36,749 nucleotides of DNA from Anncaliia algerae PRA339 (Eukaryota; Microsporidia; Tubulinosematidae). The translations under genes and the position numbers were made by a program. Where the stretch lies: NCBI GenBank assembly GCA_000385875.2, contig KK365136.1, positions 203,109 through 239,857 of the forward strand, written 5' to 3'. Shown one piece after another: positions 4,817-33,865 of the stretch. Position 1 is the first letter of the stretch, and each line of letters begins with the position of its first letter. Under the pieces are notes generated by a model. The model worked only from the letters and a program-made list of their open reading frames with translations. It ran no database searches and was not told where the DNA came from.

Positions 4817-5707
4817 ATGATAATTGTTAACAAGCCTCTTTTTATGAATCATAGAGACTTGGTGATGCTAACCAAAAATTATGAGAGCACAATTGAATGG
4901 TTAATGACAAACAATTACATACCATCTTACGCTTTGTGCAGCAGCTGTGATGACAAAGAAATGAAATTAGAAAACAATAAAAATATTAAAAGATGGAGGT
5001 GTTCTAAGTGTGGACAGGTCTCATCTATATTTAAAAATACAATATTAGAAAATTTAAAAATTAGCTTAAGCAATATTATTGATTTGATATATTTTTGGTC
5101 GATTGACCTTACACAAAATAAAAGTGCTTTTGAAACAGATAATATTTGTCGTGATACAGTTTCCAAATGGTATCATAAATTGAGTCTTCAAACATTTTTT
5201 ATCATGAAAGAAACACAAGCAAACAAGATAGGAGGAATAGGCCATATTGTTGAAGTAGATGAATCTAAATTCAGCAAAAGAAAATACAATATTGGAAGAC
5301 TTAATCGTTCGCCATGGATTGTAGGAGGAGTTGATATTCATACTGGTGAAATGTTTTTTGTTGAAGTTATAAACAGAAATCAACACACTTTGAGAAATAT
5401 TTTATTAGAAAAAGTACACCTAGGAACCACAATAGTGACTGATTGCTGGAATGGATATTTAAATTTAGAGTCTTTAGGATATATACATTTAACAGTGAAT
5501 CATTCGGAAAACTTTGTCGATCCCACAACAGGGGCAAATACACAAGTGATTGAGAATAGGTGGAGTATTTTTAAAAGAAAAATAAGGTCGCGCTTCATTA
5601 CCTCAAAATCTGATTTTTCTTTGATTTTTTCGGAATTTATGTTTAAACTGAAATTTAAGACTCATGCCTTTATTAAAATTATGGAAAACTTAAATAAATT
5701 TAATTAA
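4817..5707 (+). CDS. Merlin (DDE_Tnp_IS1595/ISXO2-like) transposase
   Basis: A 296-residue transposase expected to cut out and re-insert the surrounding element in the nucleus. The N-terminal part has a zinc ribbon (Cys41, Cys44, Cys62, Cys65; WRCSKC) followed by a helical segment. The catalytic DDE core reads Asp148 (VEVDESKF), Asp209 (TDCWNGY) and Glu246 (VIENRWS), each in the context typical of the ISXO2/IS1595 family. The HLTVNHSENFVDP block before the last acidic residue is also characteristic. The frame is unbroken and lies wholly between the inverted repeats. It starts at an ATG 23 bases inside the left repeat and stops 30 bases before the right one. Family membership is firm; activity is inferred. 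Confidence 0.95.
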   Translation: MIIVNKPLFMNHRDLVMLTKNYESTIEWLMTNNYIPSYALCSSCDDKEMKLENNKNIKRWRCSKCGQVSSIFKNTILENLKISLSNIIDLIYFWSIDLTQNKSAFETDNICRDTVSKWYHKLSLQTFFIMKETQANKIGGIGHIVEVDESKFSKRKYNIGRLNRSPWIVGGVDIHTGEMFFVEVINRNQHTLRNILLEKVHLGTTIVTDCWNGYLNLESLGYIHLTVNHSENFVDPTTGANTQVIENRWSIFKRKIRSRFITSKSDFSLIFSEFMFKLKFKTHAFIKIMENLNKFN

Positions 5708-15589: not shown

Positions 15590-15859
15590 ATGTCTGAGTC
15601 TATTCCTTTCAAATTATTATACGAATCACTTAATTTAAAAATATCTCTAGACATGAAAAACGGTTCATCAATTACAGGAATATTAATAGAATTAGATGAT
15701 TTAATGAACATACAGCTGAAAAATGCTATTATTTTAACAAATAGCACTAGTAAACTGGTTAAATCCATATATTTAAGGGGTTCTGAAATTAATTTTTTTG
15801 TTTTACCACCTGCTATGAAATTTACGCCAATTCTACTTAAGGAAAGAAATAAAAATTAA
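15590..15859 (+). CDS. Sm core protein SmD3, copy 1
   Basis: An 89-residue Sm-fold protein, part of the heptameric ring on spliceosomal U snRNAs. The Sm1 motif covers about residues 18-46 (LDMKNGSSITGILIELDDLMN). The Sm2 motif is IYLRGSEINFFVLP (about 60-73), where the RG dipeptide is the family hallmark. IPFKLLYES at the start and LPPAMKFTPIL at the end match SmD3 (IPIKVLHEA and LPDMLKNAPML) better than other Sm or LSm proteins. The Arg/Gly-rich tail of animal SmD3 is missing. Keeping a core spliceosome protein fits the presence of small introns in this window. It lies between trehalase 2 and tRNA-Arg on the same strand. A second nearly identical copy is at 16385. The opposite-strand frame at 15586-15768 is a shadow. 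Confidence 0.87.
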   Translation: MSESIPFKLLYESLNLKISLDMKNGSSITGILIELDDLMNIQLKNAIILTNSTSKLVKSIYLRGSEINFFVLPPAMKFTPILLKERNKN

Positions 15860-15904
15860 GCCTTCATTTATATTAGATCTTATAACGTCAAACACTAATC
15901 TACA

Positions 15905-15978
15905 ACCTCAGTGGCGCAATTGGCTAGCGCGTTTGACTTCTAATCAAAAGGTTGCGGGTTCGATTCCCGCCTGGGGTG
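15905..15978 (+). tRNA. tRNA-Arg (anticodon UCU), copy 1
   Basis: A complete 74-nt cloverleaf. The acceptor stem ACCTCAG pairs with CTGGGGT (one G-U pair), and G78 is the discriminator base. The D arm is GCGC-AATTGGCTA-GCGC. The anticodon stem TTTGA/TCAAA encloses the loop CTTCTAA with anticodon TCT at 15939-15941, which reads AGA codons. The T arm is GCGGG-TTCGATT-CCCGC. AGA is the natural main arginine codon in such an AT-rich genome. No intron. T-runs follow the gene, fitting RNA polymerase III termination. Confidence 0.97.
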
Positions 15979-16384: not shown

Positions 16385-16654
16385 ATGTCTGAGTCCATTC
16401 CTTTCAAATTATTATACGAATCACTTAATTTAAAAATATCTCTAGACATGAAAAACGGTTCATCAATTACAGGAATATTGATAGAATTAGATGATTTAAT
16501 GAACATACAGCTGAAAAATGCTATTATTTTTACAAATAACACCAGTAAACTGGTTAAATCCATATACTTAAGGGGTTCTGAAATTAATTTTTTTGTTTTA
16601 CCACCTGCTATGAAATTTACGCCAATTCTACTTAAAGAAAGAAATAAAAATTAA
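16385..16654 (+). CDS. Sm core protein SmD3, copy 2
   Basis: The duplicate of the SmD3 gene at 15590, also 89 residues with an intact frame. Only two amino acids differ: Leu to Phe and Ser to Asn, in the segment NAII(L/F)TN(S/N)TSKL between the Sm1 and Sm2 motifs. Several other changes are silent. The CCC motif before the start is preserved, so both copies could be expressed. The difference falls in the variable linker of the Sm fold, so both proteins are likely functional. The duplication is recent or is being homogenised by gene conversion. Confidence 0.87.
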   Translation: MSESIPFKLLYESLNLKISLDMKNGSSITGILIELDDLMNIQLKNAIIFTNNTSKLVKSIYLRGSEINFFVLPPAMKFTPILLKERNKN

Positions 16655-16699
16655 GCCTTCATTTATATTAGATCTTATAACGTCAAATATAAATCAACA

Positions 16700-16773
16700 A
16701 CCTCAGTGGCGCAATTGGCTAGCGCGTTTGACTTCTAATCAAAAGGTTGCGGGTTCGATTCCCGCCTGGGGTG
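16700..16773 (+). tRNA. tRNA-Arg (anticodon UCU), copy 2
   Basis: Identical over all 74 nt to the copy at 15905-15978. It has the same position relative to SmD3 and lies inside the second unit of the tandem duplication. Confidence 0.97.
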
Positions 16774-21265: not shown

Positions 21266-21635
21266 ATGGAAGATATTGCTTACAAGACATTGTCTGCCGT
21301 TGAAGATGTTGGCACATCATTTATGGTAGGATTTATTTCTTCATTACCTAAATCTCTTTATGATACTAGAAAAAGTAAGTAAATTTTAATTAGGACCTAT
21401 AAGTATAGCAATAAATAGATCTTATAAAACCGGCTGTAGTTATGCTAAATACACTTTATTATATCATATTTCTAAGAATATACTAAATACTAACAATTTA
21501 ACCTCCTCTTTTGTTGCTAGTACTCTTCTAAAATATCGCTATGGACCTTCTCTTGCTGTAAAAAAAGGATTGATGAGTACTTTATATTCATATACTTTGG
21601 GTAAAGCTAATAAATTAATTAAAGATATCATTTAA
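21266..21635 (+). CDS. Tim17/22/23-family protein with a 19-nt intron
   Basis: Exon 1 is 21266-21374 and exon 2 is 21394-21635. Removing the 19-nt intron joins them in frame into a 116-residue protein; unspliced, the frame stops after 38 codons. The protein has alternating short hydrophobic segments with small residues: VGTSFMVGFISS (about 15-26), CSYAKYTLLYH (51-61) and a C-terminal block, NNLTSSFVASTLLKYRYGPS (70-89) plus a Gly-containing helix. That last block fits the N-S-x-x-x-G/A...L..R.GP pattern of the Tim17/Tim22/Tim23 family, whose members form inner-membrane protein import channels. Microsporidia keep a minimal import machinery for their mitosome, so a Tim22-like role is the natural inference. 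Some conserved Gly positions are Ser/Ala, so the assignment is good but not certain. It is surrounded by transposon debris, yet exon 2 is open for 80 codons. Confidence 0.7.
21375..21393 (+). other. Predicted 19-nt spliceosomal intron
   Basis: GTAAGTAAATTTTAATTAG. It has a consensus 5' site (GTAAGT) and a branch-like TTTTAAT running straight into TAG, the fused branch/acceptor layout of microsporidian introns. Excision removes the in-frame TAA and shifts frame by exactly one, into the long exon 2. At 19 nt it would be among the shortest spliceosomal introns. A sequencing indel is the alternative, but the splice signals make that less likely. Confidence 0.7.
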
Positions 21636-27754: not shown

Positions 27755-29383
27755 ATGAATAAAGAAAATAAAACATTTCTTGTTCTTGGTGCGTTCCAAA
27801 GTGGTAAATCAGAATTAATTAAACTATTTGGAAGTGACGCAGAAGAATTCAATAAGTTTCCTATCACTAAATATGAATTTATGTATAATATAACTGTACA
27901 TTCAAGACCATTCAGTTATTTATTTAGAGATGGAAATATTATAACATTTATTGATACCCCGGGACATTGTGATTATATTGATGAAGCTTTAGTACTACTT
28001 AAAATATTAAATGATGTAATATTAGTCTTAACTTTAGAGGAAAATGTTGAGAGTTTATATTTTGATATTCTTCCTTCTCTTAGAAATAAAAATGTATACT
28101 TGTTTCTTAATAAAATGGATGTATCAATTGGTAATTTACAGAGAGATATTATCTATAAGATCATAGAGAACATAAAAATAGATTACAAAAAAGTCTATCT
28201 TTGTTCTGCCAGAGAAAAATGGATATTTGAATTTAATCCTAATAATTGTAAAATAAACCAATTAAAAATGATTTATAATTACAGTAGAACTAAAATGAAA
28301 TTTGAAATGAAAAAGTTTAAAATATCAAATTCATTTTTATTTCAGGTTAAAAGATTTCTAACAAATGATAATTTACAAAATAACTGTGTTTATGCCTTTA
28401 AAAAGTATTTTATTGAAGGAGAATTTTTTATTTTAGTTTTTTCTAAAAAAGTTTTCACAAAGGGAGAAATATTTAAAAGTAACAAAATAAAAAAGATAAT
28501 TGTAGATGGTATCGAAGTAGAGAAAAGCTTAAGAGATGTTCCTGCATTTATTACTTTTGAAAAACAGATTGAAAACAACACGCTTTTAGAGGGAGATACA
28601 AGAAATCATATAAATAGTCCATTAATTTATAAAGTTAATTTAAGTAATGATGATGATATTGTATTTCTAAGTAAATATAAATCAATGTATTTAAACATAG
28701 AAATAAAAAATGATTGTATCTACGTAAGTAATGAATTAACTTTAGATTCATTTCTTACTGATGTTTATCAATTAGAAAATAAATTAATAAAGATAAAAGA
28801 CTTTGGTCTTAAAGAAAAAAGATTAATTGTACAAAGAAGAGAAAAAGAAATCAAAGTCAAAGATCAAAATACCTTTATTTTTAAAATAGAAGAAATTATG
28901 CCTAAGAACAATAGATTAATTGTAGAAGTTAATAATATGTTTTTGTATAACAATTTACCAAAAGAAATTGAACCAATGATTTTAATTTCCTTGAAAAAGG
29001 CATTTACTTTTCTCTTTAATGATTTAGAGGTTATAAAAAATGATAAGGTAATTCCTTTGTACATTTCACTTGAATCCTACAGAATAGTAGAAAATAAATC
29101 AAATGATTTTTATAATGAAATAAAACATTCCTTAGAAGAAGAGCTTAATCTGATTACATGTCAACTACAAGAGAATTTTCTCTATAAAATATTTTATGAA
29201 GATTTGGTTCATGATATAGTTTATAATGAAGTCAAAGTAATTGAGCACTATAAAATAGAAAATAGCATATTTAATGTTATTTTATGTCATATTTCTGCAA
29301 AGGATGTCTTTGGTTTTGAGAATTATTTGTATCATAAAACATTAGGAAGAATATTCTGCATTAAAAAATGTTTAATTAAATAA
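27755..29383 (+). CDS. EF2-like GTPase, possibly Snu114 (U5 snRNP)
   Basis: A 542-residue translation-factor-type GTPase. G1 is GAFQSGKS (12-19), G3 DTPGH, and G4 NKMD. The C-terminal 150 residues look like EF2 domains IV-V and end with FGFENYLYHKTLGRIF, resembling the FGxxxxLRSxTxGxG motif of EF2 domain V. The P-loop in the G-x-x-x-S-G-K form and the NKMD...LQRDIIYKIIENI context, which recalls the NKIDRL...DAYYKLRHIVDE block of Snu114, point to Snu114, which drives spliceosome activation with Brr2 and Prp8. Ria1/EFL1 (60S maturation) is the main alternative; true EF2 is unlikely because the GHVDHGK-type P-loop is missing. It is much shorter than any of these in model organisms (about 900-1100 residues). 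It converges on eRF3, with 62 bases between the stops. Confidence 0.6.
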   Translation: MNKENKTFLVLGAFQSGKSELIKLFGSDAEEFNKFPITKYEFMYNITVHSRPFSYLFRDGNIITFIDTPGHCDYIDEALVLLKILNDVILVLTLEENVESLYFDILPSLRNKNVYLFLNKMDVSIGNLQRDIIYKIIENIKIDYKKVYLCSAREKWIFEFNPNNCKINQLKMIYNYSRTKMKFEMKKFKISNSFLFQVKRFLTNDNLQNNCVYAFKKYFIEGEFFILVFSKKVFTKGEIFKSNKIKKIIVDGIEVEKSLRDVPAFITFEKQIENNTLLEGDTRNHINSPLIYKVNLSNDDDIVFLSKYKSMYLNIEIKNDCIYVSNELTLDSFLTDVYQLENKLIKIKDFGLKEKRLIVQRREKEIKVKDQNTFIFKIEEIMPKNNRLIVEVNNMFLYNNLPKEIEPMILISLKKAFTFLFNDLEVIKNDKVIPLYISLESYRIVENKSNDFYNEIKHSLEEELNLITCQLQENFLYKIFYEDLVHDIVYNEVKVIEHYKIENSIFNVILCHISAKDVFGFENYLYHKTLGRIFCIKKCLIK

Positions 29384-32611: not shown

Positions 32612-33865
32612 TCAATCAATAAATACATAAATTCCTCCCTCAGTCAAAAGAAAGAATTTGTCTTCACTTGAAACAAAATCAATTATTTCTTCATTGATTT
32701 TATATTTATAAATGACTTTCCATTTTTCAATGTCAAAAACAACTATCTCTCTATTTGAATCATCCACTGTAAATAAATAATTGTTAAATATTTTATCTCT
32801 ATTTCTTCTGTAATGAATTCTCCCTAAATTCAGGAATAAATCAGTGTTTAACAAATAATGCATGGCTGTCATTGATTCATTCCTAAAGGTAGCTAAAATG
32901 GATTTACCATCTGAAAACAAATTAGTGCATACAGGGTAAAATCTTCCTTCTACTTTTTCAATTATATCCTCTATTATTTTATAGACACCAAGAAAACCTG
33001 CACAATACAATATTTCATTATCCTTGCATATTGAGTGTATTGGACAACCAGCTACAAAGATCTCTTGAATAATGCGATTGGTTTCCAAATTTAAAATGGA
33101 CACTTTCCCATCTTCACATCCCAAAAAAATTAAATGTCTATTTTCATCATCAAAATCAAAACTTGTGAGATTTCTATCGTGTGTGAAGGTGTAAGCTTCT
33201 TTGTTGTTAAAAGAAGTAAAAAGCTTAAAAAACTTTTGGTACACAATTCCAAATATTCCATCGTTGAATGGACTTGGTTTTATATCCTTGATAAAATCAC
33301 TGGTGAAAAAATCATTTACTCCAAAAAATTCGACATTTTTTAAAGTATTTGCATCAAATTTCTTTATTCCCAATTTATTTTCTAAAAATGAAAATAAAAT
33401 AACATTATTCATTTTTTCATAAATCAAAATTGAATTTTTGTTAACTTTGGTGTGAAACTTTTTCAGGAGTCGTTTATGCAAGAAATTATATGTTGTTTGT
33501 GTCTTTAAGCTTTCTTTTTTTAATAACTCATTATTCAAATAATTAATTGTTGTTTTTAGTTTATCATTTTCTATTTGCAGATCCATTCTTAATTTTCTCT
33601 CCTGATTTAATTCTTTAATTGTTTCCTCCTCTTTTACTGAATCAATTGCAATGATTTTACTTGCAAATACAGGTCTAATCTCTGTTTTTTTAGATTTCAT
33701 GCAGCATTTAGGACACAAGGCAGTACTCCTTCTATTAAACCAAGATTCTATACATTGTTTGCCAAAGAGATGTCCACACTTTAATGATACAATTTTATGG
33801 TCTCCTGTGGTAGTATAGTTGCATAAACAAATAGGACATGAATCTTCTCCTTCTTCATTATCCAT
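32612..33865 (-). CDS. RFWD3-like RING E3 ubiquitin ligase
   Basis: A 417-residue protein with an N-terminal RING (Cys10, Cys13, Cys30, His32, Cys38, Cys51, Cys54), then a coiled coil (about 78-115), then a repeat region that looks like WD40 blades (for example FDDENRHLIFLGCEDGKVSILNL). The RING core GDHKIVSLKCGHLFGKQCIESWF, followed by CPKC and a short ALD-like segment (SKIIAID), closely follows the human RFWD3 pattern (GDHR..LRCGHLFG..CI..W, then CP.C and ALD). The usual fifth ligand is Gly in CGHLFG, and RFWD3 shares this; His23 may serve instead. In animals RFWD3 ubiquitinates RPA and RAD51 at stalled forks. A role in genome maintenance here is inference. It is divergent from MCM4, with 122 bases between start codons. 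Confidence 0.72.
   Translation of the reverse strand: MDNEEGEDSCPICLCNYTTTGDHKIVSLKCGHLFGKQCIESWFNRRSTALCPKCCMKSKKTEIRPVFASKIIAIDSVKEEETIKELNQERKLRMDLQIENDKLKTTINYLNNELLKKESLKTQTTYNFLHKRLLKKFHTKVNKNSILIYEKMNNVILFSFLENKLGIKKFDANTLKNVEFFGVNDFFTSDFIKDIKPSPFNDGIFGIVYQKFFKLFTSFNNKEAYTFTHDRNLTSFDFDDENRHLIFLGCEDGKVSILNLETNRIIQEIFVAGCPIHSICKDNEILYCAGFLGVYKIIEDIIEKVEGRFYPVCTNLFSDGKSILATFRNESMTAMHYLLNTDLFLNLGRIHYRRNRDKIFNNYLFTVDDSNREIVVFDIEKWKVIYKYKINEEIIDFVSSEDKFFLLTEGGIYVFID

Follow-up and report, generated by a model that had tools for sequence, protein, structure and literature searches.

Short spliceosomal introns have been described in several microsporidia. In E. cuniculi, excerpts of the published account give intron lengths of 22–76 nt, all GT-AG (PMC3629993), and the expression used to search T. 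hominis is GTA[AG]GT...TAATT N{0,4} AG (PMC3486916). In the excerpted text of the latter source, the L39 intron motif has a position common to E. cuniculi, N. ceranae, and T. hominis. For Spraguea lophii, six of eight intron-like sites are described as not seen spliced (PMC3749934, in extract), which counts against the splicing proposed below for Anncaliia. Extracts of two further sources concern A. algerae: splicing losses are given for E. bieneusi and V. corneae, A. algerae not being among the species named (Desjardins et al., PMC4435813), and a survey calls A. algerae devoid of introns (Lim et al., PMC8476143). Outside the microsporidia, introns of 16–17 nt are given for mikrocytids (PMC10245619) and 19 nt is the commonest intron size in two chlorarachniophyte nucleomorphs (PMC4035089), again as excerpted. 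A partial search of the literature found no account of 19–21 nt introns in Anncaliia.

In the present study, a stretch of 36,749 nt from A. algerae PRA339 (contig KK365136.1, positions 203,109–239,857; hereafter the window), with a GC content of 19–31% per 2 kb, was analysed together with the 5.6 Mb genome (78 contigs, designated by C-numbers). A 19-nt gap in a hidden gene of the window is, with high probability on the sequence evidence, a genuine U2-type spliceosomal intron, belonging to a class of 19–21 nt in this genome. There are 22 candidates in total, 19 ending in AG and three in TG. Like the introns of E. cuniculi, T. hominis, and S. lophii, as far as the excerpted accounts describe them, they have GTAAGT and TAATT near AG, are few, and include ribosomal protein introns after the ATG and an L39 intron (PMC3486916, PMC3629993, PMC3749934). 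Their very narrow size range lies below that excerpted for E. cuniculi. They also differ from the microsporidian short introns in these excerpts in that most copies are located in one membrane-protein family, where three of the introns have TG rather than AG at the end. Mikrocytid and nucleomorph introns are likewise tiny and uniform (PMC10245619; PMC4035089), however in the extracts those unrelated lineages have hundreds of introns. An earlier description of the 19-nt intron as one of the shortest spliceosomal introns known is fair, although it is not a record, given the sizes excerpted for these two groups.

The hidden gene and its protein

The intron reads GTAAGT...TTTTAATTAG directly from the sequence and separates two exons (Table 1). 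In the sequence-only reading, the unspliced frame from the ATG at 21266 ended after 38 codons and a 19-nt GTAAGT intron restored a frame of 116 residues. Re-reading the sequence gives exactly this first frame, and the joined exons form 116 codons without a stop. The 5′ site is GTAAGT, the AG adjoins TAATT, within the 0–4 nt spacing of the T. hominis expression, and removal of the 19 nt restores the frame.

Table 1. Position and character of the hidden gene, the SmD3 genes, and the intron-containing family; positions are those of the window unless a contig is named.
Feature	Position	Strand	Locus	Remarks
Hidden gene exon 1	21266..21374	+		ATG, 36 codons and one base; codon score +0.35 bits per codon
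Phase-1 intron, 19 nt, GTAAGTAAATTTTAATTAG	21375..21393	+		5′ splice site GTAAGT; TAATT (branch-point-like), then AG directly
Hidden gene exon 2	21394..21635	+		Stop TAA, completes the 116-residue protein; codon score −0.03 (79 codons)
SmD3 snRNP core protein gene, copy 1	15590..15859	+		PF01423; of 30 PDB matches, the best 13 are all to SmD3
SmD3 gene, copy 2 (tandem duplicate)	16385..16654	+		Two of the 89 residues encoded are not the same as in copy 1
Nine-member hydrophobic protein family	C43 6.6–21.1 kb; C2 274–285 kb; C3 near 124.7 kb		L006–L009, L011, L012, L015–L022, L038–L040	
TG-ending family introns	C2:273916–273936; C2:280005–280024; C43:17324–17343		L038, L039, L040	Long frames joined, at positions that the paralogues predict

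Both strands of the window were scanned for GTAAGT donors preceded by an exon that starts with ATG and has 34 codons or more and followed, after a gap of 15–40 nt ending in AG, by an open stretch of 60 codons or more. The hidden-gene donor was the only one to qualify, with two acceptors giving 19 and 34 nt, and no qualifying structure was returned by the same scan of 30 simulated windows (order-3 Markov); the structure exceeds what is expected by chance. The looser donor GTA[AT]G, for which there is no simulation, adds one site in the window, at 33191 (33 nt).

The gene had been described as unannotated, and this agrees with the protein comparison, in which the hidden protein has no match at E ≤ 1 (six candidates scored) in a collection that includes at least one protein of A. 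algerae PRA109. The lack of a relative at this threshold fits a gene overlooked by annotation. The window's cysteinyl-tRNA synthetase matches its A. algerae PRA109 counterpart at 99% identity over 100% of its length, which places the genome in A. algerae or a close relative; the next match is at 72%, and the named matches near the top (among the best 120 of 7988) are mostly from microsporidia.

The protein had also been assigned to the Tim17/22/23 family, as a mitosomal import component, a name that was proposed ahead of the test. The HMM check that accompanied this assignment has now been run and came out negative. Up to E 10, the spliced protein has no match in Pfam, where a yeast Tim22 control matches PF02466 at 2.3e-29, and no sequence match in the PDB; likewise, it has no match in NCBIfam. 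Against a 121-sequence Tim22 HMM it ranked 60 (0 being the best) among 2431 sequences reported, and against a 124-sequence Tim17/22/23 HMM it ranked 15 among 2370, nearly all of those reported being its own shuffles; its profile scores are within the shuffle range. The hhalign probabilities were 0.3% and 1.0%, with at least 6/60 and at least 2/60 shuffles, respectively, scoring higher. A PF02466 search of the genome itself is uninformative, since the control genomes were silent.

The assignment is thus not supported, and what is left of it is a marginal pairwise similarity. In local alignments with yeast Tim22 and with human TIM17A, the score of the spliced protein was reached by none of 500 shuffles each; for yeast TIM17, human TIM22, and yeast TIM23 it was reached by 13, 96, and 108 of 500. 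When 24 members of the family were compared, the highest score (71, BLOSUM45) was reached by 1/400 shuffles and, in a second run, by 7/1000; with BLOSUM62 and PAM250 the best score was reached by 11/1000 and 106/1000. When shuffling was confined to blocks of eight residues, the corresponding counts were 4, 7, and 38 of 500 (BLOSUM45, BLOSUM62, and PAM250). Of 77 unrelated ORF pieces compared with the Tim family, one outscores the spliced protein. Proteins of the Tim17, Tim22, and Tim23 type have four membrane spans. The hydropathy of the spliced protein is weak, with a peak of 1.14 near residues 8–24 and lower values later, against a peak of 1.89 for yeast Tim22.

The alternative of a diverged Tim22-type translocase, located in the inner membrane of the parasite's mitosome, gains from the low shuffle counts for yeast Tim22, human TIM17A, and the best of the 24 members, and from an excerpted report in which the single microsporidian Tim is probably Tim22-derived and HHpred may fail to recognise proteins of this sort (PMC6200312). 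Because single mitosomal Tims can be unrecognisable, this identity is possible; set against the absent Pfam and PDB matches, the HMM ranks amid shuffles, the higher-scoring unrelated piece, and the weak hydropathy, it is rather unlikely. On this evidence the most fitting label is that of a small orphan protein in which a few stretches weakly resemble membrane spans.

Probable introns of 19–21 nt in the genome

The genome was searched with the pattern GTAAGTN{2,20}TAATTAG, in which the ends are fixed and lengths of 15–33 nt are allowed. This identified 21 sites, compared with 11 for the reversed-pattern control. Nineteen of them are 19–21 nt long: 11 of 19 nt, six of 20 nt, and two of 21 nt. 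At 17 of the 21 sites, the two stretches that the candidate intron joins are both open, the upstream one over at least 47 codons, counted from the last stop, and the downstream one over at least 35. Two more join a start codon to a ribosomal protein, in both cases through a 20-nt intron directly after the ATG: eL37 (PF01907, 1.5e-20) and eL39 (PF00832, 4.1e-13). Judged from its ATG-adjacent site, the eL39 intron would be at the same position as the L39 motif of the three species named above. The remaining two sites (26 and 15 nt) show no convincing gene on inspection.

Motif counts alone are weak support. A looser motif is present at 24 sites and its reverse at 22, and the five extra sites of the looser motif show no convincing intron (one, L025, only makes an already open frame shorter). 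The ATG-adjacent motif has six sites, as does its control, and of these six only eL37 and eL39 are convincing. The case for the introns is carried by their size, the joined frames, the conserved positions, and the known proteins.

The 19 introns are spread over 13 genes: the hidden gene, eL37, eL39, a gene at C2:18680, and nine members of one paralogous family. Fifteen of the 19 are in this family and hence are not independent, which leaves five unrelated gene settings, rather than 19 separate cases, as the basis of the class. The exact 19-mer of the hidden-gene intron is present twice in the genome; its second copy, at C43:17616, is likewise frame-joining and is in an unrelated gene. At C2:18680–18698 (L005), a 19-nt intron joins another gene to 119 residues, with no Pfam match.

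In the family, each gene has two introns of 19–21 nt, one phase-0 and one phase-2, at the same positions in all nine members, and the middle exon is 89–91 codons throughout. Since both introns are at common positions in every member, they would predate the divergence of the family. The kinship itself is borne out by pieces that match between contigs when read apart, with best E values of 4e-17 (C3/C43), 2e-13 (C2/C43), and 1e-5 (C2/C3), although identity between contigs is only about 24–36% in the best pairs. Exon 1 and the middle exon together have two to six strongly hydrophobic stretches, and a Pfam scan of two members gave no match.

Three of the family introns end in TAATTTG, with TG replacing AG, and were found when the 3′ end was left free in the search for partner introns. 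Genome-wide, GTAAGTN{4,12}TAATTTG has four sites, compared with two in the control; three are these introns and the fourth is unconvincing. Within 130 nt of the donor, frame-keeping AG acceptors number none at C43:17324, one at C2:280005 (89 nt), and one at C2:273916 (30 nt). These introns may have TG acceptors, may be decayed copies, or may use other AG acceptors.

Splicing and its alternatives

In all likelihood the intron of the hidden gene is genuine, its kind being known and its length unusually small. It is supported by another 18 sites that join frames and have this motif and size, among them those of two ribosomal protein genes, as well as by the U2 snRNA and SmD3 encoded in the genome. 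The spliceosome would recognise GTAAGT at the 5′ end, the branch-point-like TAATT fused directly to the AG would serve as the recognised 3′ element, and removal of the intron would join the two exons to give the 116-residue protein. From the nucleotide sequence we infer both that the RNA is spliced and that TAATT contains the branch point.

Alternatively, there is no splicing, and either an indel or assembly error breaks the gene or exon 1 alone gives a 38-residue product. Codon usage bears on this. The score was trained on 12 ORFs, which themselves give +0.08 to +0.30 bits per codon when scored on themselves, and the non-training open stretches of at least 50 codons, among them those of a transposase and of the second SmD3, lie between −0.33 and +0.27, excepting three low scorers near 19.7–19.9 kb. 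Exon 1 is supported by its score and exon 2 is neutral, so the earlier description of exon 2 as coding-like is not supported by codon usage; the neutral score speaks for the no-splicing alternative. Against it, the supposed insert is a complete intron, matching the 18 other frame-joining sites in size and motif. An absence of splicing is improbable.

Use of the downstream AG, which would give a 34-nt intron and a protein five residues shorter, also keeps the frame, and rare downstream acceptor use is reported for E. cuniculi in the excerpted account (PMC3629993), but it is very improbable, since splicing of eL37 at the AG that adjoins TAATT yields a protein whose beginning agrees with the Pfam profile from position one, the presence of AG directly after TAATT at the other sites being partly built into the search pattern.

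The transposase of the window (4817–5707) is of the IS1595 type (DDE_Tnp_IS1595), and its N-terminal stretch matches an eIF-5/eIF-2B domain.

Candidates for the machinery that would splice the 19-nt intron are present. A U2 snRNA at C44 near 42387 (L036:1473–1658) scores 66.5 bits (E 6e-12) in Rfam, where the gathering score is 46. The U2 pattern search gave two matches, compared with three in the control, and the match on C44 has one mismatch. The window itself has two SmD3 genes (Table 1). U6 was not found in the genome with Rfam and a pattern, nor was Prp8 with two Pfam domains; these family searches were silent in all 14 control genomes, so absence is not implied.

In the window, SmD3 and a following tRNA gene form a duplicated unit (15590–15978 and 16385–16773, 795 bases apart). 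A translation-type GTPase is encoded at 27755–29383, its PDB matches being weak ones to TetM; this ORF was considered as Snu114 and, having only these matches, was rejected.

Taken jointly, these observations may tentatively be read, at somewhat less than even confidence, as an Anncaliia spliceosome that serves uniform introns of 19–21 nt whose branch point runs straight into the 3′ end (TAATTAG), with the 3′ end perhaps placed at a constant spacing from the branch point, which would allow TG instead of AG, and with most introns paired in a diverged membrane-protein family rather than in housekeeping genes. In a lineage whose spliceosome is reduced, a uniform set of introns that have branch point and acceptor fused would make the minimal size of a U2-type intron and the choice of its 3′ end testable. 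Introns of 19–21 nt are easily overlooked by gene callers and by spliced-read mappers, so gene catalogues of parasites of this sort may lose genes and species may be wrongly counted as intron-free.
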